Shown here: in pieces, positions 28,472-47,827 of the stretch
How the letters are laid out: every line of letters starts with the position of its first letter
How positions within the stretch are numbered: the first letter of the stretch is position 1
NCBI RefSeq assembly: GCF_041431135.1
Contig: NZ_CP107799.1
Coordinates: 806,001 to 870,000, forward strand
Length of the DNA: 64,000 bases
Direction: 5' to 3'
Source of the DNA: Streptomyces sp. NBC_00554
Lineage (GTDB): Bacteria > Actinomycetota > Actinomycetes > Streptomycetales > Streptomycetaceae
Notes under the pieces: generated by a model
Databases searched by the model: none
What the model was told of the DNA's origin: nothing
What the model saw: only the letters and a program-made list of their open reading frames with translations
Position numbers and translations under genes: made by a program

Positions 28472-29645
<1,174 letters not shown>

Positions 29646-29738: not shown

Positions 29739-30692
29739 CTATTCGTTCTCAGGCGTGTCGAACAGGGCGCTGACGGACTCACCGTTGTGAATGCGCCGCA
29801 CGGCCTCGGCGAGCGCCGGGGCGATGGACAGGATCCGCAGCTTCTCGGTGTGCTCCTCGGCCGGGATCGGCACGGTGTTCGTACAGACGATCTCAAGGAC
29901 GTCGGGCTGGTCGCTGAGCCGCTTGAGCGCGCCCGCCGCGAACAGACCGTGGGTGCAGGCGACCCGGATGGAGCGCGGACCCAGCTCCCGGAGCCGCTCG
30001 AGGAGTTCGAGAACGGTGCTGCCCTTGGCGATCTCGTCGTCCAGCACGATGACATCCCGGTCGGTGACCTCACCGATGACGGAGCTGATGCTGACCCGGT
30101 CGTCGGCGAACCGCTGCTTGGCACCGGCGGCCACCTGGGCACCGATCAGCCGCGCGAAGTGGGCGGCCTCCTTGGCGTTGCCCAGGTCAGGCGAGACGAC
30201 CGTCGTACGCGACAGGTCGTAGTGGCGGAAGTGCGCGGCCAGCTCCCGCAGCGCGTGCAGATGGTCGACCGGGACGGAGAAGAACCCGTGCACCTGCGGG
30301 GAGTGCAGCGTCATGGCCAGGACCCGGCTCGCCCCAGCGGCCACCAGCAGATCCGCGACCAGCCGCCCGCCGAGCGAGATCCTCGGCATGTCCTTCTTGT
30401 CCGAGCGGGCGTAGGAGTAGTGCGGCATGACCACGGTGATCCGCCCCGCGGACGCGCCGCGCGCCGCGTCGCACATCATCAGCAGCTCGACGAGGTTCTC
30501 CTGCACCGGCTTGACCAGCGGCTGCACCAGGAAGACATCGCGCTCCCGGCAATTGGACTGGAGCTGCACTTCCAGGCAGTCGTTGGCGAACCGGCTGGTC
30601 CGGCTCGGGCTGAGGGGCACACCGAGATGGGCGCAGACCTCAGCGGCCAGTTCGGGATGGGCACTACCGCTGAACACGGCGATGTCACGCAC
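29739..30692 (-). CDS. Ribose-phosphate pyrophosphokinase (divergent PRPP synthetase)
   Basis: 317-residue PRPP synthetase homologue. Motifs are YSYARSDKKDMPRISLGGRLVADLLVAAGASRVLAMTLHSPQVHGFF, where housekeeping enzymes have ARQDRK and DLHAGQ, then VVSPDLGNAKEA and the ribose-phosphate loop VIVLDDEIAKGSTVLELL. These changes mark it as a paralogue, not the housekeeping prs. GTG 30692 has GAGGAG five bases upstream. It reads toward EF-Tu (93-base gap, possible operon) and is divergent from the ribosomal-protection gene. Product would be PRPP for nucleotide or secondary metabolism. Confidence 0.88.
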   Translation of the reverse strand: MRDIAVFSGSAHPELAAEVCAHLGVPLSPSRTSRFANDCLEVQLQSNCRERDVFLVQPLVKPVQENLVELLMMCDAARGASAGRITVVMPHYSYARSDKKDMPRISLGGRLVADLLVAAGASRVLAMTLHSPQVHGFFSVPVDHLHALRELAAHFRHYDLSRTTVVSPDLGNAKEAAHFARLIGAQVAAGAKQRFADDRVSISSVIGEVTDRDVIVLDDEIAKGSTVLELLERLRELGPRSIRVACTHGLFAAGALKRLSDQPDVLEIVCTNTVPIPAEEHTEKLRILSIAPALAEAVRRIHNGESVSALFDTPENE

Positions 30693-30885
30693 GGACGCTC
30701 CTCGCATGATCGAACAGGATGCGCCGCCGGTCGGCATGATCGATCCGGGATGCGTGCCTCATGCTACTGGCCCGCGCCGGGTGTCCCCACCGGGAGAAAA
30801 CCGGTTGCGGAGGGTCACCGGGGACCCGCCATGATGATGGCGGCACCAGCACCCCTGCGAGCCCCTCGAACACAGGAGAGACGGA

Positions 30886-30999
30886 ATGCGCCGATTCCTC
30901 GGAACTTCTCAGCGCCCCTACCGGACGACTGTTCTCGAGGACTCGACCACGCATGCACACCTTGAACATCGGAATTCTGGCCCACGTCGACGCGGGTAA
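30886..30999 (+). CDS. Candidate leader peptide overlapping the ribosomal-protection gene start
   Basis: A 37-codon frame opens at ATG 30886 behind an excellent ribosome site (GGAGAG six bases upstream) and ends with TAA at 30997-30999, overlapping the first 16 codons of the downstream gene in another frame. The peptide is basic (begins MRRFLGTSQRPYRTT and ends GPRRRG). The main gene's own ATG at 30953 has only a distant GAGGA. This arrangement fits translational attenuation or coupling, as used by drug-inducible ribosome-protection and methylase genes. Whether it is translated is inference. Confidence 0.5.
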   Translation: MRRFLGTSQRPYRTTVLEDSTTHAHLEHRNSGPRRRG

Positions 31000-32812
31000 G
31001 ACCAGCCTCACCGAGCGGCTGCTCTTCGACGGCGGCGCGATCGACCGGCTCGGCAGTGTGGACGCCGGTGACACCCGGACGGACGACGGGGAGATCGAGC
31101 GGCAGCGCGGCATCACCATCCGCTCGGCCGTCGCCGCGTTCACCGTCGGGGACGTACAGGTCAATCTGATCGACACCCCCGGGCACTCCGACTTCATCGC
31201 CGAGGTCGAACGTGCCCTGAAGGTCCTGGACGGCGCGGTGCTGCTGCTCTCCGCCGTCGAGGGAGTCCAGGCGCAGACGCGTGTCCTGATGAGGACCCTG
31301 CGAAGGCTGCGGCTGCCCACGCTCGTCTTCGTCAACAAGATCGACCGGGCGGGGGCGCGGGAGGAGGAGCTGCTCGCCGACATCCGGCGCCGCCTCACGC
31401 CGTACGTCGTGCCCCTCACGGGGGTGCGGGACATCGGCACCCCCCGCGCCCGGGTCGTGCCGCGCCCGCTGGACGACACGGCGTCCGGCACCCTCGCCGA
31501 GGTCGACACGGGCGTGCTGGCCGCGGTCGTGGACGGGCCCGCGCCGACCGAGGACGAACTGCGCGCCGCGCTCGCCGCGCGGACCGCCGACGGGTCCCTG
31601 CACCCTGTCTTCTTCGGGTCCGCGGTGGGCGGGCAGGGAGTCGCCGAACTGGTCGGGGGTCTTGTCCGGCTGATTCCGCGCCCGGTGTACCCCGGCGCCG
31701 GCGAACCGCGCGGCACGGTCTTCGCCGTACGGCCGGGACCCGGCGGCGAGCGCACGGCTTATCTCCGGTTGTACGGGGGTGAGGTGACGCGTCGTCAGCA
31801 GTTGACGTTCCTGCGCCGTGAGGCCGACGGGCGGACGGCGCAGGTGTCCGGACGGGCACTGGGCCTGGAGGTGGTCGGCCGACCCGGCGCGGTGCCGCTC
31901 ACACCGGGCAACATCGCCGCGCTCCGGGGCGTCGGAGGCATCCGCGTCGGCGACCGGCTCGGCGAAGTCACCGAGAGGGCCCCGCAGTTCGCGGCCCCGA
32001 CGCTGGAGACGACGGTACGGGCGAGACACCCCGAGCAGGCGGCCGCGTTGCGCACCGCCCTCCTCGCCCTCGCCGATCAGGACCCGCTGACGCATGCCAG
32101 GCCCGCCGAGTCCGGCAGTACCGCGCTGCTGCTCTACGGCGAGGTGCAGAAGGAGGTGCTCTCGGCCACGCTGGCCCAGGACTTCGGCATCGAGGCCGAG
32201 TTCGAGCCGAGCCGGGTGCGGTTCCTGGAACGGCCGGAAGGCACCGGCGAGGCATACGAGGAGATTCAGCGGCACGGCGACAACCGGTTCTGGGCGACGG
32301 TCGGGCTGCGCGTCGAGCCCGGGCCGCACGGCTCCGGCGGCGTCTTCACGTACGAGACCGAACTCGGCGCCCTCCCCCGGGCCTTCCACCAGGCGATCGA
32401 GGACACCGTTCACGCGACCCTGCTCACCGGTCGGCAGGGCCGGCCGGTGACGGACTACCGGGTCACGCTGGTCCGTTCGGGATTCGCCGCGCCCATCAGC
32501 ACGGCCGCCGACTTCCGCGGACTGACCCCGGTCGTACTGCGCCGCGCTCTGGAGCGGGCGGGGACCCGGGTGTACGAGCCTTACCACTCCTTCGAGGTGG
32601 AACTCCCGCTGGACGCACTGGCCCCGGTGACAGCTCGACTGGCCGCGTACGGAGCGGAGTTCAAGGAGACCACCGGAGGACGTACCGCCTGGCTGGTCAC
32701 CGGTGAGCTGCCGGCCCGGCATGTGCGGGACGTCGAGCTGCGGCTGCCCGGGCTGACGCGGGGCGAAGGCGTGTGGTGGTCCCGTGCTTCGGGGGACCGG
32801 GTGGTCCGCTGA
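30953..32812 (+). CDS. TetM/OtrA-like ribosomal protection protein (EF-G family GTPase)
   Basis: 619-residue translational GTPase of the tetracycline ribosomal-protection class. G-domain: NIGILAHVDAGKTSLTERLL, RQRGITIRSAVAAF, IDTPGHSDFIAEVERALKVLDGAVLLLSAVEGVQ, VNKIDRAG. Domain IV has the family loop region AAPISTAADFRGLTPVVLRRALERAG and the closing PYHSFEVELP. Length is near that of Tet(M) and OtrA. It would bind the ribosome and displace tetracycline-like drugs, or may serve another antibiotic or a stalled ribosome state. It is divergent from the PRPP synthetase and preceded by an overlapping short frame. Confidence 0.9.
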   Translation: MHTLNIGILAHVDAGKTSLTERLLFDGGAIDRLGSVDAGDTRTDDGEIERQRGITIRSAVAAFTVGDVQVNLIDTPGHSDFIAEVERALKVLDGAVLLLSAVEGVQAQTRVLMRTLRRLRLPTLVFVNKIDRAGAREEELLADIRRRLTPYVVPLTGVRDIGTPRARVVPRPLDDTASGTLAEVDTGVLAAVVDGPAPTEDELRAALAARTADGSLHPVFFGSAVGGQGVAELVGGLVRLIPRPVYPGAGEPRGTVFAVRPGPGGERTAYLRLYGGEVTRRQQLTFLRREADGRTAQVSGRALGLEVVGRPGAVPLTPGNIAALRGVGGIRVGDRLGEVTERAPQFAAPTLETTVRARHPEQAAALRTALLALADQDPLTHARPAESGSTALLLYGEVQKEVLSATLAQDFGIEAEFEPSRVRFLERPEGTGEAYEEIQRHGDNRFWATVGLRVEPGPHGSGGVFTYETELGALPRAFHQAIEDTVHATLLTGRQGRPVTDYRVTLVRSGFAAPISTAADFRGLTPVVLRRALERAGTRVYEPYHSFEVELPLDALAPVTARLAAYGAEFKETTGGRTAWLVTGELPARHVRDVELRLPGLTRGEGVWWSRASGDRVVR

Positions 32813-34471: not shown

Positions 34472-34483
34472 TGGTCCGGACCA
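34472..34483. promoter_or_regulatory. TGGTCCGGACCA palindrome upstream of the GH16 gene
   Basis: Perfect 12-base palindrome a few bases upstream of the -35. It resembles the TGGTCTAGACCA core bound by DasR (GntR/HutC family) and the repeated element of Streptomyces chitinase promoters, differing in the central two bases. Confidence 0.6.
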
Positions 34484-34488
34484 GAACC

Positions 34489-34521
34489 TTGACACCCCCT
34501 TACCTCACTTCTTAAATCAAG
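34489..34521 (+). promoter_or_regulatory. GH16 promoter with ROK-like element over the -10
   Basis: TTGACA at 34489-34494 and TTAAAT at 34512-34517 are separated by 17 bases, a good housekeeping-type promoter about 75 bases before the GH16 start. CTCACTTCTTAAATCAAG (34504-34521) covers the -10 and matches 15 of 18 bases at 43120-43137, upstream of the ABC/GH1 operon. Confidence 0.65.
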
Positions 34522-34592
34522 AGGCAAAGCATGTACCCCCCACCTCAGTCGGCCCGCCCCTCTCCCCGGGTCGCAATACGGAAGGGAGAGTC

Positions 34593-35843
34593 GTGGCTTC
34601 CCCACGCCTGCTCCGAAGATGCCTCTTTGCCGCTCTCTCCGCATTACTCGTCGCGTCTGCCGCCATCGCTCCCGCTCAGGCGGGTCCCGCGGCCGCCGAT
34701 GACGTGACCGCCGCGGCCGTGGTGTTCCAGGACACCTTCGACGGCTCCGGCGGATGGGCCGTGGATCCCAACAAGTGGCAGATCGAGACCGGCGACAACG
34801 TCAACAACCACGAGCGGCAGATGTACACGGCCGGCGCCAACAACGCGGCGCTGGACGGCCAGGGCCACCTGGTCATCACCGCTCGTAAGGACAATCCGGC
34901 CAACTACCAGTGCTGGTACGGAAGGTGCGAGTACACCTCGGCCCGGCTGAACACCGCCGGCAAGTTCACCGCCCAGTACGGCCGTGTCGAGGCCACCCTG
35001 AAGGTTCCGCGCGGGCAGGGCATGTGGCCCGCGTTCTGGATGCTCGGCAACGACATCGGTTCGGTCGGCTGGCCCGCGTCGGGTGAGATCGACGTCATGG
35101 AGAACGTCGGCTACGAGCCGTCGACCATCCACGGCACGATCCACGGACCGGGATACTCCGGCTCGGCCGGCATCGGCGCCGGGTACACCCTGCCGAACGG
35201 CCAGCAGTTCGCGGACGGTTTCCACACCTTCGCGGTCGACTGGGCGCCGAACTCAATCAAGTGGTCGGTCGACGGCATCGTCTACCAGACGCGCACGCCC
35301 GCCGATGTGGGCGGCAACGCATGGGTGTTCAACAAGCCGTTCTACCTGATCCTCAACCTCGCGGTCGGCGGCTACTGGCCCGGCGACCCGAACAGCTCCA
35401 CCGTCTTCCCGCAGTACCTCGTCGTCGATGAGGTGAAGGTGACGACGGGCACCACCTCGGGCACCGGGGTCCCGATCAGGGGCCTCGCGGGCAAGTGCGT
35501 GGACGTGGCCGGGGCCAGCTCGGCCAACGGCGCCGCCGTACAGCTCTACGACTGCAACTCGAGCGCCGCCCAGCAGTGGACGGTCGGCTCGGACGGCACG
35601 ATCCGCGCCCTCGGCAAGTGCCTCGATGTCACGAGCGGCGGCACCGCGGACGGCTCGACCGTGCAGCTCTACGACTGCAACGGGAGTGCCGCCCAGCAAT
35701 GGGTCGTCAGTTCGGCCAATGACATCGTGAACCCCCAGGCCAACAAGTGCCTGGACGTCACGGGCAGCAACTCGGCCAATGCCACACGTCTGCAGATCTG
35801 GACGTGCACCGGTGCGGCCAACCAGAAGTGGACGGTTGGCTGA
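34593..35843 (+). CDS. Secreted GH16 beta-glucanase with ricin-type lectin domain
   Basis: 416-residue exported enzyme. Signal peptide: RRCLFAALSALLVASAAIAPAQA. The GH16 catalytic domain (about 45-285) has the nucleophile/acid-base motif SGEIDVMENVG (ExDxxE) and GQGMWPAFWMLG, typical of endo-beta-1,3-glucanases (laminarinases). A C-terminal ricin-B/CBM13 trefoil (about 290-416) has three QxW-type repeats (CNSSAAQQWTVG, CNGSAAQQWVV, CTGAANQKWTVG) for polysaccharide binding. GTG 34593 has GGGAG upstream. Regulation: a TGGTCCGGACCA palindrome and a ROK-like element lie at the promoter. A 17-base-pair terminator follows. Confidence 0.93.
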   Translation: MASPRLLRRCLFAALSALLVASAAIAPAQAGPAAADDVTAAAVVFQDTFDGSGGWAVDPNKWQIETGDNVNNHERQMYTAGANNAALDGQGHLVITARKDNPANYQCWYGRCEYTSARLNTAGKFTAQYGRVEATLKVPRGQGMWPAFWMLGNDIGSVGWPASGEIDVMENVGYEPSTIHGTIHGPGYSGSAGIGAGYTLPNGQQFADGFHTFAVDWAPNSIKWSVDGIVYQTRTPADVGGNAWVFNKPFYLILNLAVGGYWPGDPNSSTVFPQYLVVDEVKVTTGTTSGTGVPIRGLAGKCVDVAGASSANGAAVQLYDCNSSAAQQWTVGSDGTIRALGKCLDVTSGGTADGSTVQLYDCNGSAAQQWVVSSANDIVNPQANKCLDVTGSNSANATRLQIWTCTGAANQKWTVG

Positions 35844-35865
35844 CAGACCGCCCCGGGCGGGCAGG

Positions 35866-35908
35866 CGGAGGGTCCGGCAGGGTTGCCCCTGCCGGACCCT
35901 CCGTGTTT
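35866..35908. terminator. Strong intrinsic terminator after the GH16 gene
   Basis: CGGAGGGTCCGGCAGGG (35866-35882) pairs perfectly with CCCTGCCGGACCCTCCG (35887-35903) around TTGC and is followed by TGTTT. It lies between convergent genes. Confidence 0.85.
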
Positions 35909-35918
35909 CACCCCTCCC

Positions 35919-36296
35919 TCAGCAGCTCATGGCCCATGTGTGCGAGTCGCCGCGGTCGTTGGCGACGCCGTTGTAGCCGACCTCCTCGCCCGGGGTGAGG
36001 CAGATGGTCATGGCACCGCCCTGGTAGGCGTCTTCGTAGACCTTGACGTGATCCTTGACGCCCGGTCCCGAGATGCCGTGGTTGGCCCACGAGGAGTCCG
36101 TGTCGGCGATCCAGCTCTCCCACCAGCCGTCGTCCCCGGACCAGTTGGCTCGCTGACCGTCGAAGTTGGCGTTCTCCCAGACGCAGAAGTTGCCGCTGGG
36201 ACAGTCCGCCGCGCCGGAGGGTGTGGCAAGGGCCAGTCCGCCCCCGAGGGCGAGGAGGGCGGCTGCTGCTGCGGTGGCGAGACGCTTGGCGATCAT
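35919..36296 (-). CDS. Secreted peptidase inhibitor I36-like protein
   Basis: 125-residue exported protein, third gene of an operon. The signal peptide is AKRLATAAAAALLALGGGLALATPSGAA. The mature part (CPSGNFCVWENANFDGQRANWSG, GVKDHVKVYEDAYQGGAMTICLTPGEEVG) has the Cys and aromatic pattern of the streptomycete I36/SMPI-type beta-gamma-crystallin-like inhibitors. Its ATG overlaps the stop of the lipoprotein gene (ATGA). Target protease unknown; a structural or signalling role is possible. Confidence 0.82.
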   Translation of the reverse strand: MIAKRLATAAAAALLALGGGLALATPSGAADCPSGNFCVWENANFDGQRANWSGDDGWWESWIADTDSSWANHGISGPGVKDHVKVYEDAYQGGAMTICLTPGEEVGYNGVANDRGDSHTWAMSC

Positions 36297-37024
36297 GAAG
36301 AGGTGTTGCCTTTCTTTTCGGTTACCCGGACGGTCCGCTCGGCGTACAGGGCCGCCGCGCGGTGCAGCGCGCGGGTGCGCAACTGCGTGTAGGTGGTCAA
36401 CTGCTCGCGCCGTTCGGCGCGTACCTGGGCCAGCAGGGCCGGTTCCAGGCGGGCACGGAGCCGGGCGAGGCCGCTCTCGCGGGCGCAGCGCGCGGAGACG
36501 GCGGTGTCGGGGCGCTTGGGCCGGGGCCCGTTCGCCGGGGTGACGCAGCGGGTCCAACGGGCCGACGCGGCACCGTAGTCGGGGTCGCGTTTCATACGCT
36601 GCTGGGCCTCGGCGCGCAGGTTGTTCACCACGACCCTGGTGCGGAACCAGCGGCGCTGGTCCCCGTACAGCTCACGTTGCGCGGCGGCGAGGCAGCCGTC
36701 GGTGTGGGCGGTGACGGTGTAGCCGGTGGCGAGGGTGACGGAGAGTTCGGGGCGGCCGCGGCCGAAGAGGGCGTCCTGGAGTCGGCGGTCCTCCTGGCCG
36801 GACGGGCGCTCGTGGGCCGAGGCGTGCCGTACGGACAGCCCCTGGCGGGCCAGACACTCGTCCACGAGCACCCGTTGGGCCGTGTCGATGAGGTCGTCCT
36901 GGGCGCGTTCGGTGGTGGGCAGCGCGGGGGTGCCTCGCTCGGCGGACGGCGTGGCGCACCCGGCGAGCGCCAGCGTCGCCAGCACCGCGAGTGCGGTGGC
37001 GCGCAGCGTGCTGTGCGGTCGCAC
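36293..37024 (-). CDS. Lipoprotein between two I36-like genes
   Basis: 243-residue predicted lipoprotein: signal TLRATALAVLATLALAGC with lipobox LALAGC near residue 23. The mature part is helical and Arg-rich (ARLRARLEPALLAQVRAERREQLTTYTQLRTRALHRAAALY), with LVDECLARQGLSV and DGCLAAAQRELYGD. I do not recognise a family. It begins with GTG three bases after the stop of the upstream I36-like gene and overlaps the downstream one, so the three are translated together and may act as a surface complex. Confidence 0.75.
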   Translation of the reverse strand: MRPHSTLRATALAVLATLALAGCATPSAERGTPALPTTERAQDDLIDTAQRVLVDECLARQGLSVRHASAHERPSGQEDRRLQDALFGRGRPELSVTLATGYTVTAHTDGCLAAAQRELYGDQRRWFRTRVVVNNLRAEAQQRMKRDPDYGAASARWTRCVTPANGPRPKRPDTAVSARCARESGLARLRARLEPALLAQVRAERREQLTTYTQLRTRALHRAAALYAERTVRVTEKKGNTSS

Positions 37025-37027
37025 GGG

Positions 37028-37441
37028 TCAGCCGACCTCGCAGTTCATCGTGGTGTCGGCGACGCCGTCGAGCCGGGCGCCCCAGGGCCAGTTGTCGGCG
37101 AGGTCGTGGGCGCGGATCAGCCGGTAGTAGCAGGTGCCGCGGCCCCAGTCGATGGCGTACACGGCGGAATCCGCGCTGGAGCGGAAGGAGGCGGCCTTGT
37201 CGTGGAGGAACTCCGGGACGTCCATATAGCCGGGCGGTGTGTAGCACCAGGACGATCCGTGTTGCCCCGCGCCGGTCCAGAAGCAGACGTCCCCGGCCTG
37301 CGGAGCGCCGAGGGCGGTCACGGGTGCGGCTCCGGCGGCTGTCGAGGGGACGGCACCGGCCGCGGTCGCCGTGGCGGCGCCGCCCAGCAGAGCGGTGGCG
37401 GCGAGGGCGGCGGCTGCGGGCATGGCGAAGCCACGGAACAT
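37028..37441 (-). CDS. Secreted I36-like small protein
   Basis: 137-residue exported protein, first in the three-gene operon. Signal peptide: FRGFAMPAAAALAATALLGGAATATA. Mature region: GDVCFWTGAGQHGSSWCYTPPGYMDVPEFLHDKAASFRSSADSAVYAIDWGRGTCYYRLI, with four Cys and the fold pattern of I36/beta-gamma-crystallin proteins. It is distinct in sequence from the third gene's product, so they are not a recent duplication. ATG 37441 has AGGAG five bases upstream. Confidence 0.8.
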   Translation of the reverse strand: MFRGFAMPAAAALAATALLGGAATATAAGAVPSTAAGAAPVTALGAPQAGDVCFWTGAGQHGSSWCYTPPGYMDVPEFLHDKAASFRSSADSAVYAIDWGRGTCYYRLIRAHDLADNWPWGARLDGVADTTMNCEVG

Positions 37442-37654
37442 GGAGACTCCTGGTGGGAGGAAGCGACGCCGGGGCGGGTCCTGACCACCGGCAGGATCAA
37501 CGTGCCCTCGTGAGAACGGGCGCATGCGCGGTTCCCGCCGAATGATGATCTTTGGTGGAGTGCGGGGTCATTCGTCCCATTCGCAGCTCACACCGGCGCG
37601 AAACCCGCAGGTCCGCGCGCTCCCCGGACGCCGGCCCGGACGCCCCGGCCGGTC

Positions 37655-37891
37655 CTAGTGCGGCATCCAAGTCAGCTTGTCGCCGCCCACCCAGCGCACC
37701 ACGTCCGGGTCGTCGAGATCGTGCACCGTGATGCCGTAGGCCGCGGCCGTTGTCAGTACGTCGGTGAGCGCCCTCGCCTGGCCCACCACTTCGCCGTCGA
37801 TCTCCATGATCCGGAACGGCGGCGTCCCCGGCTGTACCCCGAGCACCATGATCCGCGGGTAGGACAGGTGTGGGCTCGCGATTTCGGTCAT
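37655..37891 (-). CDS. Small hypothetical protein
   Basis: 78-residue soluble protein with SHLSYPRI-type start (ASPHLSYPRIMVLGVQPGTPPFRIMEIDGEVVG) and ARALTDVLTTAAAYGITVHDLDDPDVVRWVGGDKLTWM. The pattern, a beta hairpin and then a helix, recurs in short Streptomyces proteins of unknown role. No strong ribosome site precedes ATG 37891. Divergent from the PHP gene. Confidence 0.65.
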   Translation of the reverse strand: MTEIASPHLSYPRIMVLGVQPGTPPFRIMEIDGEVVGQARALTDVLTTAAAYGITVHDLDDPDVVRWVGGDKLTWMPH

Positions 37892-38004
37892 GAGTCGAGC
37901 GTAGAACGGTTCCCCCCGGTCAGCGCTCCCGCTTCCCGGCGGCGGTGACCATCCGCCGTGCGGGGCGGCGGCGGCTGGGCAAGGCTTGGAGGAGGGAGGT
38001 GCCC

Positions 38005-39042
38005 ATGGATCCCGTCGAGGCGCTGGACCGGATCGCGTTCCTGCTGGAGCGGGACCAGGCCCCCACCTATCGCGTACGTGCCTTCCGCACCGCCGAGGCC
38101 GTGCTGGCCGCGCTGCCCGAGGGCGAGGTGGAAGAGCGCGTGGCCGCCGGGTCACTGGAGTCGCTCAAGGGCGTCGGACCCAAGACGGCGCAGGTCGTGC
38201 GGGAGGCGCTGGCCGGTCAGGTGCCCGGCTATCTGGAGAAGCTCGAGCAGGCGGCCGGGGCGCCGCTCGCCCAGGGGGGTGAGGGGCTGCGGGCGCTGCT
38301 GCGTGGCGACTGCCATCTGCACTCCGACTGGTCGGACGGCGGCAGCCCGATCGAGGAGATGGGCAGGACCGCGGCGCGGCTCGGGCACGACTGGGCGGTG
38401 CTCACGGACCACTCGCCGCGGCTGACCGTGGCGCGCGGGCTGTCTCCGGACCGTCTGCGCGAGCAGTTGGCGGTGGTCGCGGAACTCAACCGGCGGTGGG
38501 CGCCGTTCCGGCTGCTCACCGGCATCGAGTGCGACATCCTCGACGACGGGTCGCTCGATCAGGAGCCGGAGTTGCTGGAGCGGCTCGATGTCGTGGTGGT
38601 GTCCGTGCACTCCAAGCTGCGCATGGACGCGAGGCCGATGACCCGCCGTATGGTCGCCGCCGTACGCAATCCGCTGGCGGACGTGCTCGGGCACTGCACG
38701 GGCCGCCTGATCACCGGGCGCGGACGGCCCGAGTCGGAGTTCGACGCGGACGCGGTCTTCGGGGCCTGCGCGGAGTCCGGCACCGCCGTGGAGATCAACA
38801 GCCGCCCCGAACGGCTCGACCCGCCGCGCCGGCTGCTGCGCCGGGCGGTCGACGCGGGCGTGCTGTTCTCCGTGGACACCGACGCGCACGCTCCGGGCCA
38901 GCTCGACTGGCAGATCCACGGCTGCGCGCGGGCCGAGGAGTGCGGGGTGCCGGCGGAGCGAGTGATCACCACGTGGACGGCGGACGAGCTGCTGTCCTGG
39001 ACCAGGGACCGGACGACCCCGGCTCGCGTGAGCGGTGCCTGA
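38005..39042 (+). CDS. PHP domain phosphoesterase with helix-hairpin-helix (PolX C-terminal-like)
   Basis: 345-residue protein: N-terminal helix-hairpin-helix (LESLKGVGPKTAQVVREAL, residues 52-75) and a C-terminal PHP domain with metal ligands in GDCHLHSDWSDG (about 115), VLTDHSPR, GIECDIL, VSVHSKL, LGHCTGR, and VDTDAHAPGQLD. It matches the exonuclease part of PolX without the polymerase; likely a metal-dependent phosphoesterase acting on DNA ends or phosphate esters. ATG 38005 has GGAGGGAGG upstream. Stand-alone gene. Confidence 0.9.
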   Translation: MDPVEALDRIAFLLERDQAPTYRVRAFRTAEAVLAALPEGEVEERVAAGSLESLKGVGPKTAQVVREALAGQVPGYLEKLEQAAGAPLAQGGEGLRALLRGDCHLHSDWSDGGSPIEEMGRTAARLGHDWAVLTDHSPRLTVARGLSPDRLREQLAVVAELNRRWAPFRLLTGIECDILDDGSLDQEPELLERLDVVVVSVHSKLRMDARPMTRRMVAAVRNPLADVLGHCTGRLITGRGRPESEFDADAVFGACAESGTAVEINSRPERLDPPRRLLRRAVDAGVLFSVDTDAHAPGQLDWQIHGCARAEECGVPAERVITTWTADELLSWTRDRTTPARVSGA

Positions 39043-39385
39043 CGTCCGCCACCGCACGCCCACTCCCCGCATGACCACGGTGTACCCGCCGTGACACACG
39101 TCACCGGGTCCGTCCCCCTCCCCGGGAACACCTACCGGTAGTTCCCCGTTGAACAAACTGTGGGTGCGGATGGAACAGTGTCCCCGGGCCTAACCCTTCG
39201 CCCACAGGGAAGATCGTTCGGCTGAAGCCCTGTGGAGCCCCCGCCGAGAGGCGACCGCCGTCCGTGCCCACCACTGACGACCCCGACCGTGATTCCCCCG
39301 TCCGGTCGGGGTCTTTCCCATGCCCTCACCCGGGGGCGAGTGTCCCCTTGACTTCGAGTGCTCTCCAATTCGTAGCGTTCCGGGC
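39043..39385. other. Intergenic region with an intrinsic terminator
   Basis: No gene supported. GACCCCGACCG (39279-39289) pairs with CGGTCGGGGTC (39303-39313) and is followed by TTT, a good plus-strand terminator that lies 240 bases after the PHP stop, unusually far. CTACCGGTAG near 39131 is a short palindrome. Confidence 0.6.
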
Positions 39386-40345
39386 ATGACCACTGCACAG
39401 CACAAGATCGGTTCCGGTTTCGGCGCCCGGAGCACCGCCGACGAAGTCCTTCAGGGCATCGACCTCTCCGGAAAGCTCGCGATCGTCACGGGCGGGTACT
39501 CGGGCCTGGGCCTGGAGACGACGCGCGCACTCACCAAGGCGGGCGCCCGTGTCGTCGTTCCCGCGCGGCGCCCCGACGCCGCCCGTGCGGCGGTGGACGG
39601 CATCGAGGGTGTCGAGGTGGACGAGCTCGACCTCGGCGACCTCGACAGCGTCCGCGCCTTCGCCGAGCGCTTCCTCGCCTCTGGCCGCACCGTCGACATC
39701 GTCATCAACAACGCCGGGATCATGGCGTGCCCCGAGACCCGTGTCGGACCCGGCTGGGAAGCCCAGTTCGCCACCAACCACCTCGGCCACTACGCGCTCG
39801 TCAACCGGCTCTGGCCGGCGATCGCACCCGGCGGGGCGCGCGTCGTCTCCGTGTCCTCGGGCGGCCACCACAACTCGGCGATCCGCTGGGACGACCCGCA
39901 CTGGAAGACCGGCTACGACAAGTGGCAGGCGTACGGGCAGGCGAAGACGGCGAACGTGCTGTTCGCCGTCCAGCTCGACCGCCTCGGTCAGGAGTCCGGC
40001 GTACGGGCCTTCTCCCTGCATCCCGGCGGTATCCTCACGCCGCTCCAGCGTCACCTTGCCAAGGAGGAGATGGTGGAGCGCGGCTGGATCGACGAGGACG
40101 GCAAGCTGGTGAACCCCGACGCCTTCAAAACGCCGGAGCAGGGCGCGGCCACTCAGGTGTGGGCCGCGACCTCGCCTCAACTGGCCGGTATGGGCGGGGT
40201 GTACTGCGAGGACTGCGACATCGCCGAGCCCGCTCCGGCGGACGGCGAGCGGACCGGCGTACAGGCCTATGCGATCGACCCCGAGCAGGCCGCACGACTG
40301 TGGGAGCTGTCGGCGGAGCTGACCGGGGTGAACGCGTTCGCGTGA
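39386..40345 (+). CDS. Short-chain dehydrogenase/reductase
   Basis: 319-residue SDR of the retinol-dehydrogenase/WWOX-like type. Cofactor site LAIVTGGYSGLGLET, structural IVINNAGIMACPE, catalytic Ser in VSVSSGGHHNS and catalytic YGQAK. An extra C-terminal region (AATQVWAATSPQLAGMGGVYCEDCDIAEP) is common in this subgroup. ATG 39386 matches homologue starts; there is no strong ribosome site and the transcript may be near-leaderless. Substrate unknown. Confidence 0.9.
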   Translation: MTTAQHKIGSGFGARSTADEVLQGIDLSGKLAIVTGGYSGLGLETTRALTKAGARVVVPARRPDAARAAVDGIEGVEVDELDLGDLDSVRAFAERFLASGRTVDIVINNAGIMACPETRVGPGWEAQFATNHLGHYALVNRLWPAIAPGGARVVSVSSGGHHNSAIRWDDPHWKTGYDKWQAYGQAKTANVLFAVQLDRLGQESGVRAFSLHPGGILTPLQRHLAKEEMVERGWIDEDGKLVNPDAFKTPEQGAATQVWAATSPQLAGMGGVYCEDCDIAEPAPADGERTGVQAYAIDPEQAARLWELSAELTGVNAFA

Positions 40346-40389
40346 CGTTCGTACGGCGTCAGCCGAACGCCTGTCGCCTGCGTACGGCG

Positions 40390-41223
40390 TCAGGCGCGGG
40401 CCATGAACTCCCTCAGGTCCGCGGTCAGTTGCCCGGCGTGCGTGGCGAACAGGCCGTGGCCCGCGTTCTCGTAGACCTTGAGCGTGCTGTCGGGCAGCAG
40501 CTCCGCCGCCCGGCGGCCGGTCAGTTCCAGGGGCGCCGAGGTGTCGTGCGTGCCGTGCACGACGAGGACGGGCAGGCCGAGTTTGGGCAGTTCGGGGGCC
40601 ACGTCCAGGGTGGCCACCAGGTTGCCCAGGGCTGCACAGGCGCGCGCGGTCGCTCCGAGGCAACGGTCGACCATCGACCGCACGTACGCGGCGGAGAGTT
40701 CGTTGCCGGGGAGGTCCAGGGCGAAGAAGGCGCGGGCGCCGTCCGCGAAGAAAGCGGCCCGGTCGCGCCGGAAGGTCTCGTTGCCCGCCCTGATGAGGTC
40801 CGGGTCGACGCCGCCCGGGTGGTCCGCCGACCGGACGATCCCCGGCACCATGCCGGCGACCAGCATCACCCCGGCCACCCGGTCGACGCCGTGCCGGGTC
40901 AGGCAGCGCACGACTTCGGCGGTGCCCAGGGAATGGCCGACCAGCGTCACGTCGCGGAGGTCGAGGTGCCGCAGCAGCCCGTCGAGATCGTCGGCCAGGC
41001 TGTCGAGGCCGAAGCCGCCCCAGACGTCGTCGGACCGCCCGTGCCCCCGCCGGTCGAGCCCGACGCACCGGTACCCCTCCTCGGCGAGCGGCAGCATCTG
41101 GTACTCCCACATCTCCGTGCCGAAGTACGAGCTGTTGACGAACACGACCACCGGTCCCCCGGCCGGACCGTAGTCGACGAAGTGCAGCCGGGCGCCATCG
41201 ACGGGGCTCTCGAAGTACGGCAT
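40390..41223 (-). CDS. Alpha/beta hydrolase
   Basis: 277-residue alpha/beta-hydrolase of the haloperoxidase/esterase type. Features: VVVFVNSSYFGTEMW (oxyanion side), nucleophile elbow LVGHSLGTAEVV, acid in VHGTHDTSAPLE and the final His in YENAGHGLFATHA. ATG 41223 has GGGAGG upstream. Convergent with the SDR. No specific substrate can be assigned. Confidence 0.9.
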   Translation of the reverse strand: MPYFESPVDGARLHFVDYGPAGGPVVVFVNSSYFGTEMWEYQMLPLAEEGYRCVGLDRRGHGRSDDVWGGFGLDSLADDLDGLLRHLDLRDVTLVGHSLGTAEVVRCLTRHGVDRVAGVMLVAGMVPGIVRSADHPGGVDPDLIRAGNETFRRDRAAFFADGARAFFALDLPGNELSAAYVRSMVDRCLGATARACAALGNLVATLDVAPELPKLGLPVLVVHGTHDTSAPLELTGRRAAELLPDSTLKVYENAGHGLFATHAGQLTADLREFMARA

Positions 41224-41346
41224 GGGAAACCTCCCGGAATCCGGTGTCGGGCGAGTCGAGTGGGTACGCCCTTCATGGTTCCGGGAGCTCCCGGCCGGGT
41301 CGATTACCTCTCGGGTCATGCCGCCCGTGAGAGCTCCCCGTCGAGG

Positions 41347-41589
41347 TCAGCCCGAGGACTCGCCGGGCTCGGGATCCTCGGGGTGGACGGTGTCCGAGCG
41401 CGGAGCGCCGCTTCTGCCCGTGCCCGCCTCGTCCGTGTCGGGGACGTCCGTGCCGGGCCCGGCGTCGCCGGGATCCGCCGAGGGAGCCGGGTCCCAGGGG
41501 TCCTCGCCATCCTGGACCTGCTGGTCCGGCATGTCCCGCGGGACCGGGTCGGTGTTCTCGCCGGGGCTCTCCGGCCGGTATGCAGTCAT
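41347..41589 (-). CDS. Small acidic disordered protein
   Basis: 80-residue, strongly acidic, Pro/Gly/Asp-rich protein (DPVPRDMPDQQVQDGEDPWDPAPSAD and similar), with no predicted fold or membrane segment. Codon bias supports coding. ATG 41589 is used; ATG 41604 is in frame. Function unknown. Confidence 0.55.
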   Translation of the reverse strand: MTAYRPESPGENTDPVPRDMPDQQVQDGEDPWDPAPSADPGDAGPGTDVPDTDEAGTGRSGAPRSDTVHPEDPEPGESSG

Positions 41590-41734
41590 GTCGCACCCAA
41601 TCATCAGCAGGTCGGCGCGGCCGGCACGCCCGGGCCGGGCCGTTGCCGACACGGCCCGCACACACCGCCGCCGGGCCGTTTCCGGCCCGGCGCGAGTACC
41701 TCGGCAGTGGGTGGCGAAACCGTTCTGCAGAGGA

Positions 41735-43042
41735 TCAGTGCGGTGCGCGGTCCTCCAGCGCCGTGCGCCAGGCCGGAGAGGGGCCCTCGCCGACCGGTTC
41801 GGCCCGTCGGCCGCCGCGGGCGAAGAAGTCGGCGAGGGGCAGGATCGCGGCACCGACGGTGACCGCGTCCGGGCCCAGCTTGCCCAGGTCGATGGAGACA
41901 CGCTCGGCCGGATAGCGCAGGGCGTACGAGGACGCGTACCGGCGTACGGCGGGCAGGAAGCGGGAGCCGAGCTGGAGGCCCGCCCAGCCGCCGATGAGGA
42001 TGCGCTCGGGCTGGAAGAGGTTGATCAGGTCGGACAGGCCTGCGCCCAGGTACTCGGCGGTCTCCTCAAGAACGGCGAGCGCCACGGCGTCGGGCTCGGT
42101 GTGCGGGGCACCCTGGGCGTCCTCGGGCGGGTAGGCGGCCGCGAGCATCGCGGTCAGCGCCGTCTCCTCGTCGACGCCCTCCGGCGGGCGCCCGCCCTCC
42201 TCGCGCCAGCGTTCCAGGAGCGCCTCCGCCCCCGCGTACGCCTCCAGGCAGCCCAGGGCGCCGCAACGGCAGCGGCGCCCCCTGACCCGTACGGTCAGAT
42301 GCCCCCATTCGACGGCCCTGCCGTACTCCACGTCCTCCGTGACGAGGCACGCGCCGACGCCGGAGCCGAAGAGGACCACGACCGCGTTGGTGGCGCCGCG
42401 GCCGGCGCCGAACCACATCTCGGCCTGGCCGAGGGTGCGGGCGCCATTGTCGGCGAAGAACGGGACGGTGGCGGGGAGTTCGCAGGTCTGGCGGAGCAGG
42501 GATTCGAGCGGGACGGCGTCCCAGCCGATCGTCTGGCCGTGCACCACCGCGCCGAGTCCGGGGGTACGGGCCACTATGCCGGGGACTCCGATGCCGACGC
42601 CGAGGAGCTGCTCCGGGGCGATGTCCGTCTCCGCCAGGACCTCGGCGATGCCGTCGCGGATGTGGCCGACGATGACCTCGACGTCGTAGCCCTGCTGCTC
42701 CAACGGGCGTTCGGTGCGGGCGAGTTCGGTGAGTGTGAGGTCGAAGAGCTCGACGCGCACGCGGGTTTCACCGACGTCCACGCCGATCATGTGGCCGCTG
42801 GCGGGCGCCACCCGCAGCAGGGTGCGCGGGCGGCCGCCGTCGGAGTCGACGCTGCCGGCCTCCTCGACCAGACCGTCGGCGACCAGTTCCGCGACCACGT
42901 TGCTGATGGAACCGGAACTCAGTCCGGTGGCCGGACCCAGTTCGTAGCGGCTCATCGGCCCGTCGAAATACAACCGTTGCAGTACAGCGGTTCGATTGCC
43001 CCGCCGCAGGTCACGGACTGTCCGCCCGTTCCGCCCCGTCAT
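41735..43042 (-). CDS. ROK family transcriptional regulator
   Basis: 435-residue ROK repressor: N-terminal winged helix (residues 10-75, YELGPATGLSSGSISNVVAELVADGLVEEAG) and a sugar-kinase-like domain with GHMIGVDVGETRVRVELFD, GIGVPGIV, the zinc motif CRCGALGCLEAYAG and PERILIGGWAG. ROK repressors are usually released by sugars or sugar phosphates. It is divergent from the ABC sugar transporter-GH1 operon and probably controls it, binding the AT-rich CTTAAC...TTAAG region near 43115-43137. That element recurs at the GH16 promoter. Confidence 0.92.
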   Translation of the reverse strand: MTGRNGRTVRDLRRGNRTAVLQRLYFDGPMSRYELGPATGLSSGSISNVVAELVADGLVEEAGSVDSDGGRPRTLLRVAPASGHMIGVDVGETRVRVELFDLTLTELARTERPLEQQGYDVEVIVGHIRDGIAEVLAETDIAPEQLLGVGIGVPGIVARTPGLGAVVHGQTIGWDAVPLESLLRQTCELPATVPFFADNGARTLGQAEMWFGAGRGATNAVVVLFGSGVGACLVTEDVEYGRAVEWGHLTVRVRGRRCRCGALGCLEAYAGAEALLERWREEGGRPPEGVDEETALTAMLAAAYPPEDAQGAPHTEPDAVALAVLEETAEYLGAGLSDLINLFQPERILIGGWAGLQLGSRFLPAVRRYASSYALRYPAERVSIDLGKLGPDAVTVGAAILPLADFFARGGRRAEPVGEGPSPAWRTALEDRAPH

Positions 43043-43092
43043 GTGGCTCCCCTCCGGTTCGCCCGACTTGAAAGATACAGCTGTGCGATCCC

Positions 43093-43140
43093 TTGACGCG
43101 ACTTTCTTCCGAGTCTTAACTCACATCCTAAATTAAGTCG
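43093..43140 (+). promoter_or_regulatory. ABC/GH1 operon promoter with ROK-like element
   Basis: TTGACG (43093-43098) and TTAACT (43116-43121) are 17 bases apart. The downstream element CTCACATCCTAAATTAAG (43120-43137), with flanking CTTAA and TTAAG half-sites, matches the GH16 promoter element at 15 of 18 bases and is the likely ROK operator. Confidence 0.6.
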
Positions 43141-43244: not shown

Positions 43245-44561
43245 ATGCGCAGAATCCGAGCCGCGGCCGCCGGTGCGGTCACTGTCTCCATGCTGACCGC
43301 CGTGACCGCCTGTGGTGGCGGCTCGTCGACGGACGGTGGATCCAATGACTCGCCGAAGACGCTGACCTACTGGGCCTCCAACCAGGGCGCCAGCGTCGAG
43401 ATCGACAAGAAGGTCCTCCAGCCCGAACTCGACAAGTTCGAGAAGGACACCGGCATCAAGGTGGAACTGGAGGTCGTGCCCTGGTCGGATCTGCTCAACC
43501 GGATCCTCACCGCGACCACCTCGGGCCAGGGCCCCGACGTCCTGAACATAGGCAACACCTGGAGCGCTTCGCTGCAGGCCACCGGGGCGCTGCTGCCCTG
43601 GGACACGAAGAACTTCGACAAGATCGGCGGCAAGGACCGCTTCGTCGACTCGGCGCTCGGCTCCACGGGCGCGCAGGGCCAGGACCCGGCCGCGGTGCCG
43701 CTGTACTCGATGTCGTACGCGCTCTACTACAACAAGAAGATGTTCGCCGACGCCGGCATCGCCAAGCCGCCGACCACCTGGGACGAGTTCGTCGCCGACG
43801 GCAAGAAGCTTTCCAAGGGCGGCAAGTGGGGAACGGCCTTCGAAGGCTCGAACCCCGCGGAGAACATCCACCATGCCGTCGTCTTCGCCAAGCAGCACGG
43901 GGGCGACTTCTTCACCGCCGACGGCAAGCCGGACTTCACCAACGACGGCGCGGTCGAGGGGGTCAAGCAATTCGTCGACCTGATGGCGACGGACAAGATC
44001 GTCGCGCCGGGCAACGCCGAGTACGCGCAGAACCAGTCCGTGAGCGACTTCGCCACGGGCAAGACGGGGATGCTGCTCTGGCAGTCCGCGTCCGCCAACC
44101 TGGAGTCGCAGGGCATGAGCGCGGACGACTTCGGCATCGCTCCGGTGCCCGTGCAGTCCGGCGCCCCGGGGACCGGCGACAACGTCAACTCGATGGTCAT
44201 GGGCATCAACCTGTCCGTCTTCAAGAACACCGACAACCTCGACGGCTCGACCAAGTTCGTGAAGTTCATGACCAGCGACGCCGAGCAGAAGATCCTCAAC
44301 ACGGCGTACAGCTCCATCCCGCCGGTCAAGACCGCCCAGACGGACGCCGCCTTCAACACCCCGGCTACCGCCGTGCTCAAGGACACGCTCGCCAAGAGCG
44401 CCGTCGCGGCTCCGCAGGTCGCTGACGAGTCCCAGTTCGAGACGGCCGTCGGTACGGCCATCAAGAACCTGTTCGCCGACGCCGCCGCCGGAAAGCCGGT
44501 GACCACGGAGTCGGTGAAGGCCCAGCTCGAGAAGGCCCAGACGCAGATGCCGACGAAGTGA
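43245..44561 (+). CDS. ABC transporter sugar-binding lipoprotein
   Basis: 438-residue extracytoplasmic solute-binding protein (family 1). Lipobox LTAVTAC near residue 24 gives a lipid-anchored protein; the mature part has LTYWASNQGA, FEKDTGIKVELEVVPWSDLLNRILTATTSGQGPDVLNIGNTW and LYYNKKMFADAGIAKPPTTWDEF, the classic carbohydrate-binding pattern. First gene of the operon; the ROK gene is divergent. With the GH1 enzyme downstream, a beta-glucoside or glucan oligosaccharide is the likely ligand (inference). Confidence 0.93.
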   Translation: MRRIRAAAAGAVTVSMLTAVTACGGGSSTDGGSNDSPKTLTYWASNQGASVEIDKKVLQPELDKFEKDTGIKVELEVVPWSDLLNRILTATTSGQGPDVLNIGNTWSASLQATGALLPWDTKNFDKIGGKDRFVDSALGSTGAQGQDPAAVPLYSMSYALYYNKKMFADAGIAKPPTTWDEFVADGKKLSKGGKWGTAFEGSNPAENIHHAVVFAKQHGGDFFTADGKPDFTNDGAVEGVKQFVDLMATDKIVAPGNAEYAQNQSVSDFATGKTGMLLWQSASANLESQGMSADDFGIAPVPVQSGAPGTGDNVNSMVMGINLSVFKNTDNLDGSTKFVKFMTSDAEQKILNTAYSSIPPVKTAQTDAAFNTPATAVLKDTLAKSAVAAPQVADESQFETAVGTAIKNLFADAAAGKPVTTESVKAQLEKAQTQMPTK

Positions 44562-45574
44562 GCGCGAGCACAAACATGACCACCACGACCGCCTCCCAAG
44601 AGGCCGGCGATCGCACGGTGCGCAAGAACTCCCCCGGTGCGGCGCGCGGCCCGCGCCGCCCCGGGCGGATCAAACGCATCGGACTGCCCTACCTGTTCCT
44701 TCTGCCCGCCCTGCTTCTCGAACTCCTAGTCCATCTGGTGCCGATGGTGATCGGCATCGTGATGAGCTTCAAGGAGCTCACGCAGTTCTACATCCGCGAC
44801 TGGGGCACCGCGCCCTGGTCCGGCCTTGACAACTACAAGGTGACGGTGGACTTCGACGCGCCCGTCGGCAAGGCGCTGCTCGACTCGTTCTTCGCCACCG
44901 TCGGCTTCACCCTGCTCTCGGTCGGCCTGTGCTGGCTGATCGGCACGGCGGCCGCGCTCTGCATGCAGGACGCCTTCCGGGGCCGCGGTCTGCTGCGCGC
45001 CCTGTTCCTGGTGCCGTACGCGCTGCCCGTCTACGCGGCCGTCATCACCTGGGTGTTCATGTTCCAGCACGACAACGGCCTGGTGAACCACGTCCTGCAC
45101 GACCAGCTCGGCATCACCGACAAGCCGTCCTTCTGGCTCCTCGGCGACAACGCCTTCTACGCGCTGCTCACCGTGTCCGTGTGGAAGGGCTGGCCGTTCG
45201 CCTTCCTCATCGTCATGGCGGGCCTGCAGAACATCCCCAAGGACCTGTACGAGGCGGCCGCCCTCGACGGCGCCGGTGTGTGGCAGCAGATCCGCCGCAT
45301 CACCCTGCCCTCACTGCGGCCCGTCAACCAGGTACTGATCCTGGTCCTGTTCCTGTGGACGTTCAACGACTTCAACACGCCGTACGTCCTGTTCGGCAAA
45401 ACAGCTCCGCCGGCCGCGGACCTCATCTCGGTGCACATCTACCAGGCGTCGTTCGTGAACTGGAACTTCGGCTATGGCTCCGCCATGTCCGTCCTGCTGC
45501 TGCTCTTCCTGCTCGTCGTGACGGGCGTCTACCTCCTGCTGACCTCCCGAGGAAGGAAGACGTCCGATGTCTAG
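44558..45574 (+). CDS. ABC sugar transporter permease (MalF type)
   Basis: 338-residue inner membrane permease with six core segments. The cytoplasmic EAA loop is present: LYEAAALDGAGVWQQIRRITLPSLRP. GTG 44558 overlaps the binding-protein stop (GTGA); ATG 44576 is also possible. It pairs with the next permease. No ATPase gene is in the operon, as is usual in Streptomyces where the shared MsiK ATPase serves several sugar importers. Confidence 0.92.
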   Translation: MSASTNMTTTTASQEAGDRTVRKNSPGAARGPRRPGRIKRIGLPYLFLLPALLLELLVHLVPMVIGIVMSFKELTQFYIRDWGTAPWSGLDNYKVTVDFDAPVGKALLDSFFATVGFTLLSVGLCWLIGTAAALCMQDAFRGRGLLRALFLVPYALPVYAAVITWVFMFQHDNGLVNHVLHDQLGITDKPSFWLLGDNAFYALLTVSVWKGWPFAFLIVMAGLQNIPKDLYEAAALDGAGVWQQIRRITLPSLRPVNQVLILVLFLWTFNDFNTPYVLFGKTAPPAADLISVHIYQASFVNWNFGYGSAMSVLLLLFLLVVTGVYLLLTSRGRKTSDV

Positions 45575-46439
45575 TACCTCCACGAAGTTCCGCTCCCCGA
45601 TGGCCCAGCCGCAGTCCTTCCTCTGGACCCGGCGGATCTTCCTCACCCTGCTCACCGGCTTCGTCCTGGTGCCCGTCTACGTCATGGTCTCCAGCTCGCT
45701 GAAGCCCTTGCAGGACGTCCAGACGAAGTTCCAATGGGTGCCGAGCAGCCTGACCATCCGCCCGTACATCGACATCTGGACGACGATCCCGCTCGCCAGG
45801 TACTTCGTGAACTCGCTGATCGTGGCGGGCGCCGCGACGGCCTGCTCGGTGGTGATCGCGGTCTTCTCGGCCTACGCCGTCAGCCGCTACAACTTCCGCG
45901 GCAAGCGCGTCTTCACGGTCACCGTGCTGTCCACCCAGATGTTCCCCGGCATCCTCTTCCTGCTGCCGCTGTTCCTTCTCTACGTCAACATCGGCAACGC
46001 CACCGGCATCGCCCTGTTCGGATCCCGCGGCGGTCTGATCCTGACGTATCTCACCTTCTCCCTCCCGTTCTCGATCTGGATGCTGATCGGGTACTTCGAC
46101 TCCGTGCCGCGCGACCTGGACGAGGCGGCACTGGTGGACGGCTGCGGGCCGCTCGGCGCGCTGTTCCGGGTCGTCGTGCCGGCCGCGATCCCCGGCATCA
46201 TCGCGGTCGCCGTCTACGCCTTCATGACCGCCTGGGGCGAGGTGCTGTTCGCCTCGGTGATGACCAACGAGGAGACCCGCACACTCGCCGTCGGGCTCCA
46301 GGGCTACTCCACGCTCTACAACGTCTACTGGAACCAGATCATGGCCGCGTCGCTCGTCGTCAGCGTCCCCGTGGTCGCCGGCTTCCTGCTCCTCCAGCGC
46401 TTTCTGGTCACCGGGCTCACCGCGGGAGCCGTCAAGTGA
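45567..46439 (+). CDS. ABC sugar transporter permease (MalG type)
   Basis: 290-residue permease with six segments and the EAA loop [59 protein letters not shown] is typical of MalG-type partners. It overlaps the previous permease by eight bases, and its stop is followed at once by the GH1 gene. Confidence 0.92.
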
Positions 46440-46468
46440 CCAACTCTCCTCTCCCCGAAGGGACTTCC

Positions 46469-47827
46469 GTGACCATCGACCTTGCCGCCCTCCCCGAGGA
46501 CTTCCTGTGGGGCACGGCCACGTCGGCCTACCAGATCGAGGGCGCCGTCGCCGAGGACGGCCGCTCCCCCTCCATCTGGGACACCTTCTCGCACACCCCC
46601 GGCAAGATCGACAACGGCGACGACGGGGACCTCGCCTGCGATCACTACCACCGCTGGCGCGAGGACATCGGGGTCATGCGCCAACTGGGCACCAACGCCT
46701 ACCGGTTGTCCATCGCATGGCCACGCGTGATGCCGGGCGGCGACGGCCCGGTCAACGCCAAGGGTCTCGACTTCTACGACGGGCTGATCGACGCCCTCCT
46801 GGAGGCGGGCATCACCCCGTCCGTCACCCTCTACCACTGGGACCTGCCGCAGGTACTGCAGGACCGGGGCGGCTGGCCCGTCCGCGACACGGCCCACCAC
46901 TTCGCGTCGTACGCGGCGGTCGTCGCGGACCGCCTCGGTGACCGCGTCAAGCACTGGACCACGCTCAACGAGCCGCTGTGCTCGGCCTGGATCGGCCACC
47001 TGGAGGGCCTGATGGCCCCGGGCTGGACGGACCTCACGGCCGCGGTGCGGACCTCGTACCACCTCCTCCTCGGCCACGGCCTCGCCACCCAGGCGATCCG
47101 CGCGGCCGTCCCCGGCGCCCAGGTCGGCATCGTCAACAACCTCTCCTACATCGAGGCCGCCACCGACCGCCCCGAGGATGTGGCCGCGGCCCGTCGGCTC
47201 GACGGCCACACCAACCGCTGGTGGCTCGACCCGGTGCACGGCCGCGGCTTCCCGGCGGACATGCAGGAGGTCTACGGAGTCGAACTCCCCGAGCAGCAGG
47301 GCGACTTGGAGACCATCGCGGCGCCCCTGGACTGGCTGGGCCTCAACTACTACTTCCCGTCCACGGTCGCCGACGACCCCACCGGCCAGGCGCCCCGAGT
47401 CCGCACGGTCCGCCGTCTCGGCGTACCCCGCACCGCCATGGACTGGGAGGTCGACGCCGCCGGCATCGAGAACCTGCTGCTCCGCCTGACGAACGACTAC
47501 GGCGCGCGCAAGATCTACGTCACCGAGAACGGCTCCGCCTATCCCGACATCGTGCGTCCCGACGGGACCGTCGACGACCCCGAGCGCACCGAGTACCTGG
47601 AGCAGCACCTCGCGGCCTGCGCCTCGGCGGCCCGCCAGGGCGTTCCGCTCGCCGGCTACTTCGCGTGGTCGCTGCTCGACAACTTCGAGTGGGCGTACGG
47701 CTACGACAAGCGCTTCGGGCTCGTGCACGTGGACTACAAGACGCAGCGGCGCACGATCAAGGGGAGCGGGCACCGGTACGCGGACATCATCCGGGCGCAT
47801 GGGAGGAAGCGGCGGAACGCGGCCTGA
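46469..47827 (+). CDS. GH1 beta-glucosidase
   Basis: 452-residue cytosolic family 1 glycosidase. Acid/base Glu in [16 protein letters not shown], nucleophile Glu in [13 protein letters not shown], and the N-terminal [21 protein letters not shown] signature. No signal peptide, so it cleaves imported oligosaccharides. GTG 46469 has GAAGGGA five bases upstream; GTG 46436 overlapping the permease stop is an alternative. It completes an import-and-hydrolysis unit like the cellobiose ceb-bglC operon, but with a ROK rather than LacI regulator. Confidence 0.93.

Follow-up and report, generated by a model that had tools for sequence, protein, structure and literature searches.

The window analysed here, a 64,000-nt stretch of the Streptomyces sp. 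NBC_00554 genome, carries two copies of a short near-palindromic element, one at the promoter of a gene for a secreted glycoside hydrolase family 16 (GH16) beta-1,3-glucanase and the other between a gene for a ROK-family regulator and a divergent operon for an ATP-binding cassette (ABC) importer and a GH1 beta-glucosidase (Table 1). The sugar-binding lipoprotein (SBP), two permeases and GH1 enzyme of the operon are encoded closely packed in that order from 43245 to 47827 (GH1 searches were made with 46472-47824), and the best solved relative of the GH16 protein was the 2hyk beta-1,3-glucanase (5.6e-84). The ROK protein contains a ROK domain (PF00480, 140 bits against a curated cut-off of 22.9) and an N-terminal helix-turn-helix region (MarR_2 at residues 18-61, 22.9 bits, under its own cut-off of 27), and its alignment with solved Lmo0178 and Mlc starts near residue 10. 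Among 163 distinct orthologue sequences, mean identity was 90.2% for residues 8-70 and 79.1% for the remainder; the Streptomyces sp. NBC_00620 record carries a ROK gene 100% identical to that of the window.

The 18-mers at 34504-34521 and 43120-43137 were identical at 15 of 18 positions and differed at three, as the initial annotation had claimed. With the ROK-side 18-mer as probe and up to 3 mismatches allowed, exactly two matches were found in the whole 10.08-Mb genome, against none for the reversed-pattern control; the idea of a shared element, for which that annotation had named a random genome-wide frequency as one refuting outcome, thus survived the motif search. A looser, degenerate version of the 18-mer, again with up to 3 mismatches, returned the same two sites only, but its reversed control also gave two, and such a loose pattern in one genome, taken alone, proves little. 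Both 18-mers are part of a 23-bp near-palindrome (the 18-mer plus 5 bp leftward) of the approximate form CTTARYTCAC-NNN-GTGAAYTAAG, the GH16 copy being CTTACCTCACTTCTTAAATCAAG and the ROK-side copy CTTAACTCACATCCTAAATTAAG. These are degenerate forms of a palindrome with nearly perfect copies elsewhere, for example CTTAGCTCACATCGTGAACTAAG upstream of ROK genes in loci L009 and L013. The two sites of the earlier reading were right, but that reading took in only a portion of the 23-bp operator, and at least four loci, not two, are likely targets.

Table 1. Predicted features of the window around the two elements
Feature	Position	Strand	Basis
DasR-box-like palindrome TGGTCCGGACCA, upstream of GH16 -35	34472..34483	.	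GGTC...ACC in most GH16 promoters
TTGACA, probable -35 of GH16 promoter	34489..34494	+	TTGAC spacing conserved
Predicted ROK operator, GH16 gene (includes 34504-34521)	34499..34521	+	Pattern matches and site model
Secreted GH16 beta-1,3-glucanase with ricin-type (CBM13) lectin domain	34593..35843	+	Pfam; solved relative 2hyk
ROK-family transcriptional regulator, N-terminal helix-turn-helix	41735..43042	-	Pfam ROK; solved relatives Lmo0178, Mlc
TTGACG, probable -35 of importer operon	43093..43098	+	Same spacing to 18-mer in 69/82 SBP/ROK promoters
Predicted ROK operator between ROK and importer operon (includes 43120-43137)	43115..43137	+	Pattern matches and site model
ABC importer SBP	43245..44561	+	Pfam SBP_bac_1; best solved relative Lin1841, 3.2e-28
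ABC importer permease 1	44558..45574	+	Pfam BPD_transp_1
ABC importer permease 2	45567..46439	+	Pfam BPD_transp_1
GH1 beta-glucosidase, predicted GTG start	46469..47827	+	Pfam GH1 7.1e-154; NCBIfam TIGR03356 above cut-off

The case as a whole rests on comparison across genomes, for which the genus sample comprised 150 Streptomyces genomes, with the present genome among them. When up to 2 mismatches were allowed, the degenerate 18-mer occurred at 144 places in 96 of the 150 genomes (reversed control, 4), and 133 of these places adjoined orthologues of GH16, ROK, SBP or GH1. Fifty-eight lay between divergent ROK and SBP genes, 50 preceded GH16 (in 50 genomes), four preceded ROK without SBP and one preceded GH1. 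A further 20 preceded SBP with no ROK gene found opposite (one of them, G102:C618, near a contig end), which argues for control in trans. Among 80 named loci, the palindrome was present at up to 2 mismatches within 320 bp upstream of the ROK gene in 58, while none of 77 control stretches did better than 7.

The presence of the element followed that of the ROK gene. Genomes with a best match at least 64% identical were counted as ROK-carrying (101 of 150), leaving 49 without a detected intact orthologue, 16 of which have solely more distant matches passing 1e-60. An 18-mer match at up to 2 mismatches was found in 92 of 101 ROK-carrying but only 4 of 49 ROK-less genomes; among the latter, the matches in G102 and G119 are regulon sites and those in G050 and G098 carry no label. 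With at most 2 mismatches allowed, the palindrome CTTARNTCACNNCNTGANYTAAG was found in 49 of 50 ROK-carrying genomes, hand-picked mainly for better assemblies (115 forward matches; control, 1 forward and 1 reverse), and in 2 of the 49 ROK-less genomes (control, again 1 forward and 1 reverse). Both exceptions are drafts: in G119 the ROK gene next to the site is read in three pieces, and G102 consists of about 1420 contigs. A Fisher p near 1e-24 for the association between operator and ROK gene ignores phylogeny and is descriptive only. GH16 homologues in 17 of the 49 ROK-less genomes, several of which may not be orthologues, were used as a further control, and only the G102 copy scored within the range of the training sites of the site model described below (lowest, 26.9).

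The spacing between the element and an upstream TTGAC differed by promoter class. TTGAC started 15 nt ahead of the 18-mer in 49 of 50 GH16 promoters, versus 27 nt in 69 and 15 nt in 9 of 82 SBP/ROK promoters. Because of the 15-nt distance, the -10 of the GH16 promoter would be expected inside the element.

The same operator was found at two other loci of this genome. At 2918158 it lies between divergent genes for a GH3 protein with CBM11 and a GH30 protein with a lectin domain, whose best NCBIfam matches were exo-beta-1,3/1,6-glucosidase and endo-1,6-beta-glucanase, respectively, both under cut-off. At 615667 it lies ahead of a lectin-domain GH18-like gene (GH18 match under its cut-off), followed by a GH55 gene and a ThuA-lectin gene; the GH55 protein gave no catalytic Pfam match, yet it matched 4pew at 1.7e-223, which is SacteLam55A, a bacterial exo-beta-1,3-glucosidase, according to PMC10637969. 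When a sequence-only model built from 47 sites was used to seek further sites in this genome, nothing beyond these four loci was returned except a weak fifth operator-like site (G000:C1:438871, L389; E 3.8), which stands before a gene whose product, of more than 470 aa, is probably secreted and by eye GH71/GH99-like.

Elsewhere, 54 further loci were drawn from the palindrome matches listed, some of them repeating ROK or GH loci already seen. At 51 of the 54, a gene for ROK, SBP, GH16, GH55, GH18-like, GH30, GH3 or ThuA lay no more than 1.5 kb away in the appropriate orientation (the GH30 label of L283 rests on 28% identity); L267, where a GH3 gene starts at the site, is the 52nd labelled locus, and L251 and L261 remain unlabelled. 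The palindrome was also present in 6 of 18 genomes from outside Streptomyces. Six loci were inspected there: a ROK relative of about 47-49% lay divergent from GH30 in L410, L411 and L414, ROK was divergent from SBP in L415, L412 matched GH55 in part, and L413 had no match. The sequence GTTCAATCACGTCTTGAACTAAG recurs outside the genus in G151, G154, G156, G160 and G166, and in L410, L411 and L414 it stands between the ROK relative and GH30.

We consider it likely, with a probability of about 0.85, that the two elements are operators of the adjacently encoded ROK protein, which would repress beta-glucan genes until an imported sugar releases it. With no inducer, the ROK protein on the 23-bp near-palindrome, over the expected -10 of each promoter, would block RNA polymerase. 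The secreted GH16 enzyme, plus the GH55, GH30, GH3 and GH18-like proteins encoded elsewhere in the genome, would cut beta-1,3/1,6-glucan into short oligosaccharides, which the ABC importer would take up and the GH1 enzyme would split, and the imported sugar would free the ROK protein from the DNA. Relief by an imported oligosaccharide is proposed because the site covers the expected -10, the neighbouring regulator is of the ROK family and CsnR offers a precedent. The shared regulon of GH16 and the ROK/ABC/GH1 operon put forward by the initial annotation is thus well supported by the conserved neighbours and by co-occurrence with the ROK gene, and it appears larger than was proposed there.

By analogy, we read the system as a regulon for beta-1,3/1,6-glucan under a CsnR-like ROK repressor. 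According to PMC3048496, PMC4856308 and PMC6097792, the CsnR regulon of S. lividans/coelicolor, which serves chitosan, has a ROK repressor with the same feedback logic. Its palindromic box is found both at csnA, which encodes a secreted hydrolase, and at csnREFGHK, the importer operon of the repressor itself; here, too, a palindromic box marks both the ROK/importer operon and the gene for a secreted hydrolase. Unlike that of CsnR, which ends in GH4 and a kinase, the operon here ends in GH1, and the secreted members are beta-glucanases. The CsnR box itself was rejected as the identity of the element, since the site printed in PMC4856308 is by eye unlike the window 23-mers.

The sugar is the part of this interpretation most open to an alternative: the regulon may be real but respond to, for example, beta-1,2- or beta-1,4-linked glucose rather than to a beta-1,3/1,6-glucan product. 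GH1 enzymes are broad. The closest solved relative of the SBP, Lin1841, is a sophoro-oligosaccharide binder according to PMC12369401. The secreted members, however, are a 2hyk-like GH16, a 4pew-like GH55, and GH30 and GH3 proteins with beta-1,3/1,6 best matches, which makes another sugar unlikely, if still the most credible of the alternatives. That the operators belong to another regulator, the ROK gene being merely a travelling neighbour, we regard as improbable. ROK binding to the sites is a prediction, and the 20 of 144 sites at an importer gene without ROK beside it would suit such a regulator, but operator presence tracks the ROK gene across genomes, and several ROK genes away from the importer have their own palindromic site.

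It is less probable again, and by a good deal, that the element is no operator but a conserved piece of the core promoter. Its overlap with the expected -10 and its fixed distance from TTGAC within each class would fit, but that distance is not the same in the two classes, the site is palindromic, and among ROK-less genomes it occurs only in the drafts G102 and G119. Chance likeness between two AT-rich promoter stretches, which could appeal to the two reversed-control matches of the loose pattern, was rejected: it is contradicted by conservation across species, by co-occurrence with ROK, by the uniqueness of the 18-mer and by the palindromes upstream of ROK genes.

Several observations weigh against the interpretation of the elements as ROK operators. 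At 2 mismatches the 18-mer was absent from nine of the 101 ROK-carrying genomes, and three others (G047, G088 and G138) have a sole match that is unlabelled. Weak site-like sequence was present at GH16 homologues of ROK-less genomes (G079, 23.7; G127, 22.6; G103 and G075, near 17.5). Across the order, where all 245 genomes were counted regardless of ROK status, the palindrome was found in 151, with 25 reversed-control matches pointing to some background. Model scores in this genome were modest (E 0.13 for the GH16 site and 1.1 for the GH18-like/GH55 site), and the 47 training sites include the GH16 and GH3|GH30 variants. The placement of the element over the GH16 -10 by the initial annotation agreed with the TTGAC spacing, but a sigma-70 scan of the GH16 and importer promoter regions recognised no promoter in either. 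In addition, PMC12772271 reports a GH55 laminarinase in the supernatant of glucose-grown Streptomyces SirexAA-E, unlike what would be expected under tight repression.

Eleven of the 144 18-mer places were not at GH16, ROK, SBP or GH1, which also counts against that interpretation. Four of the 11 precede genes for secreted lectin-domain proteins. Four others look like chance (two of these are homologous stretches, in G138 inside an open reading frame), and three, at GH42-like genes named by eye, look unrelated. At the latter (L109, L141 and L080), a conserved CTCAATTCTTAAATTACG marks where a GH42-like gene for beta-galactosidase starts in three genomes and is perhaps the site of another regulator.

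Besides the shared element, which the initial annotation recognised, the GH16 promoter carries a second conserved element that it missed. GGTC...ACC occurred within 35 bp before TTGAC in 41 of 50 GH16 promoters (31 as TGGTC...ACCA) versus 1 of 78 SBP promoters, its core ending exactly 6 nt ahead of TTGAC in 40 of the 41, whereas 27 of 10000 shuffled GH16 windows contained it. The likeness is to the DasR regulon of chitin and N-acetylglucosamine, and this genome encodes a DasR orthologue (515.8 bits to solved DasR over 254/254 residues); the window copy, however, agrees by eye with the printed dre consensus A(G/C)TGGTCTAGACCA(G/C)T at just 12 of 16 positions, and a DasR site here is a prediction. 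The form TGGTCYRKACCA occurred at 10 places in this genome, with no enrichment by count (reversed control, 5 forward and 5 reverse). Five of these places lie at chitinase genes confirmed by Pfam, or immediately ahead of them; in L301 and L303 the site is overlapped by the longest reading frame. One is at the GH16 gene, three are others, and one precedes the gene for a CBM/fn3 protein, cut off, with a similar layout. The strict GGTC...ACC core was near 3 of 7 GH18-like/GH55 operators, 0 of 16 GH30|GH3 operators and 0 of 14 operators of a second GH55 type; looser forms stood at a few more GH18-like/GH55 operators, the 615667 site included.

A DasR-box-like palindrome both at GH16 promoters and at chitinase genes suggests joint control by chitin and beta-glucan, and joint DasR/ROK control of GH16 promoters is a reasonable prediction. 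We propose more tentatively, and at somewhat less than even odds, that several Streptomyces glucanase promoters may be two-input switches, with DasR (chitin breakdown) just upstream of the -35 and ROK (beta-glucan breakdown) over the -10, so that full expression would need both signals, as from fungal cell wall. The promoter of a lectin-domain GH19 chitinase gene (L305, G000:C1:7407350) has a dre-like TGGTCCATACCA and TTGACG, as well as a degenerate stretch that resembles the GH16 18-mer with 4 mismatches counted by eye, and is a possible hybrid chitin/glucan promoter.

In the literature searched, published texts only and mostly without subscription papers, we found no account of a ROK protein that regulates the use of laminarin or beta-glucan. 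RokB (SCO6115) of Streptomyces coelicolor is likewise a ROK regulator with an inverted-repeat site (PnovH; 7-bp arms, 11-bp spacer), but its arms are different and its proposed role is in amino-acid metabolism, according to PMC4856308. Streptomyces griseus SGR_2423-2426, for beta-1,2-glucan, also combines an ABC importer with a GH1 beta-glucosidase, but its genes include one for GH193, and neither 'ROK' nor 'regulator' appears as a word in the main text of PMC12369401. The present comparison points to a likely regulator and operator for beta-1,3/1,6-glucan use and defines a conserved target set. Streptomyces is a genus known for attacking fungi, and the system offers a compact way to ask whether chitin and glucan signals are combined at a single promoter in streptomycetes.

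Two other features of the window are recorded here. Directly downstream of GH1, on the opposite strand, lies a gene for a cytochrome P450-reductase fusion (47922-51206; CYP102-like by eye), and EF-Tu-like, PRPP-synthetase-like and ribosomal-protection-type GTPase genes, so labelled by eye, occur together at 28452-32812.

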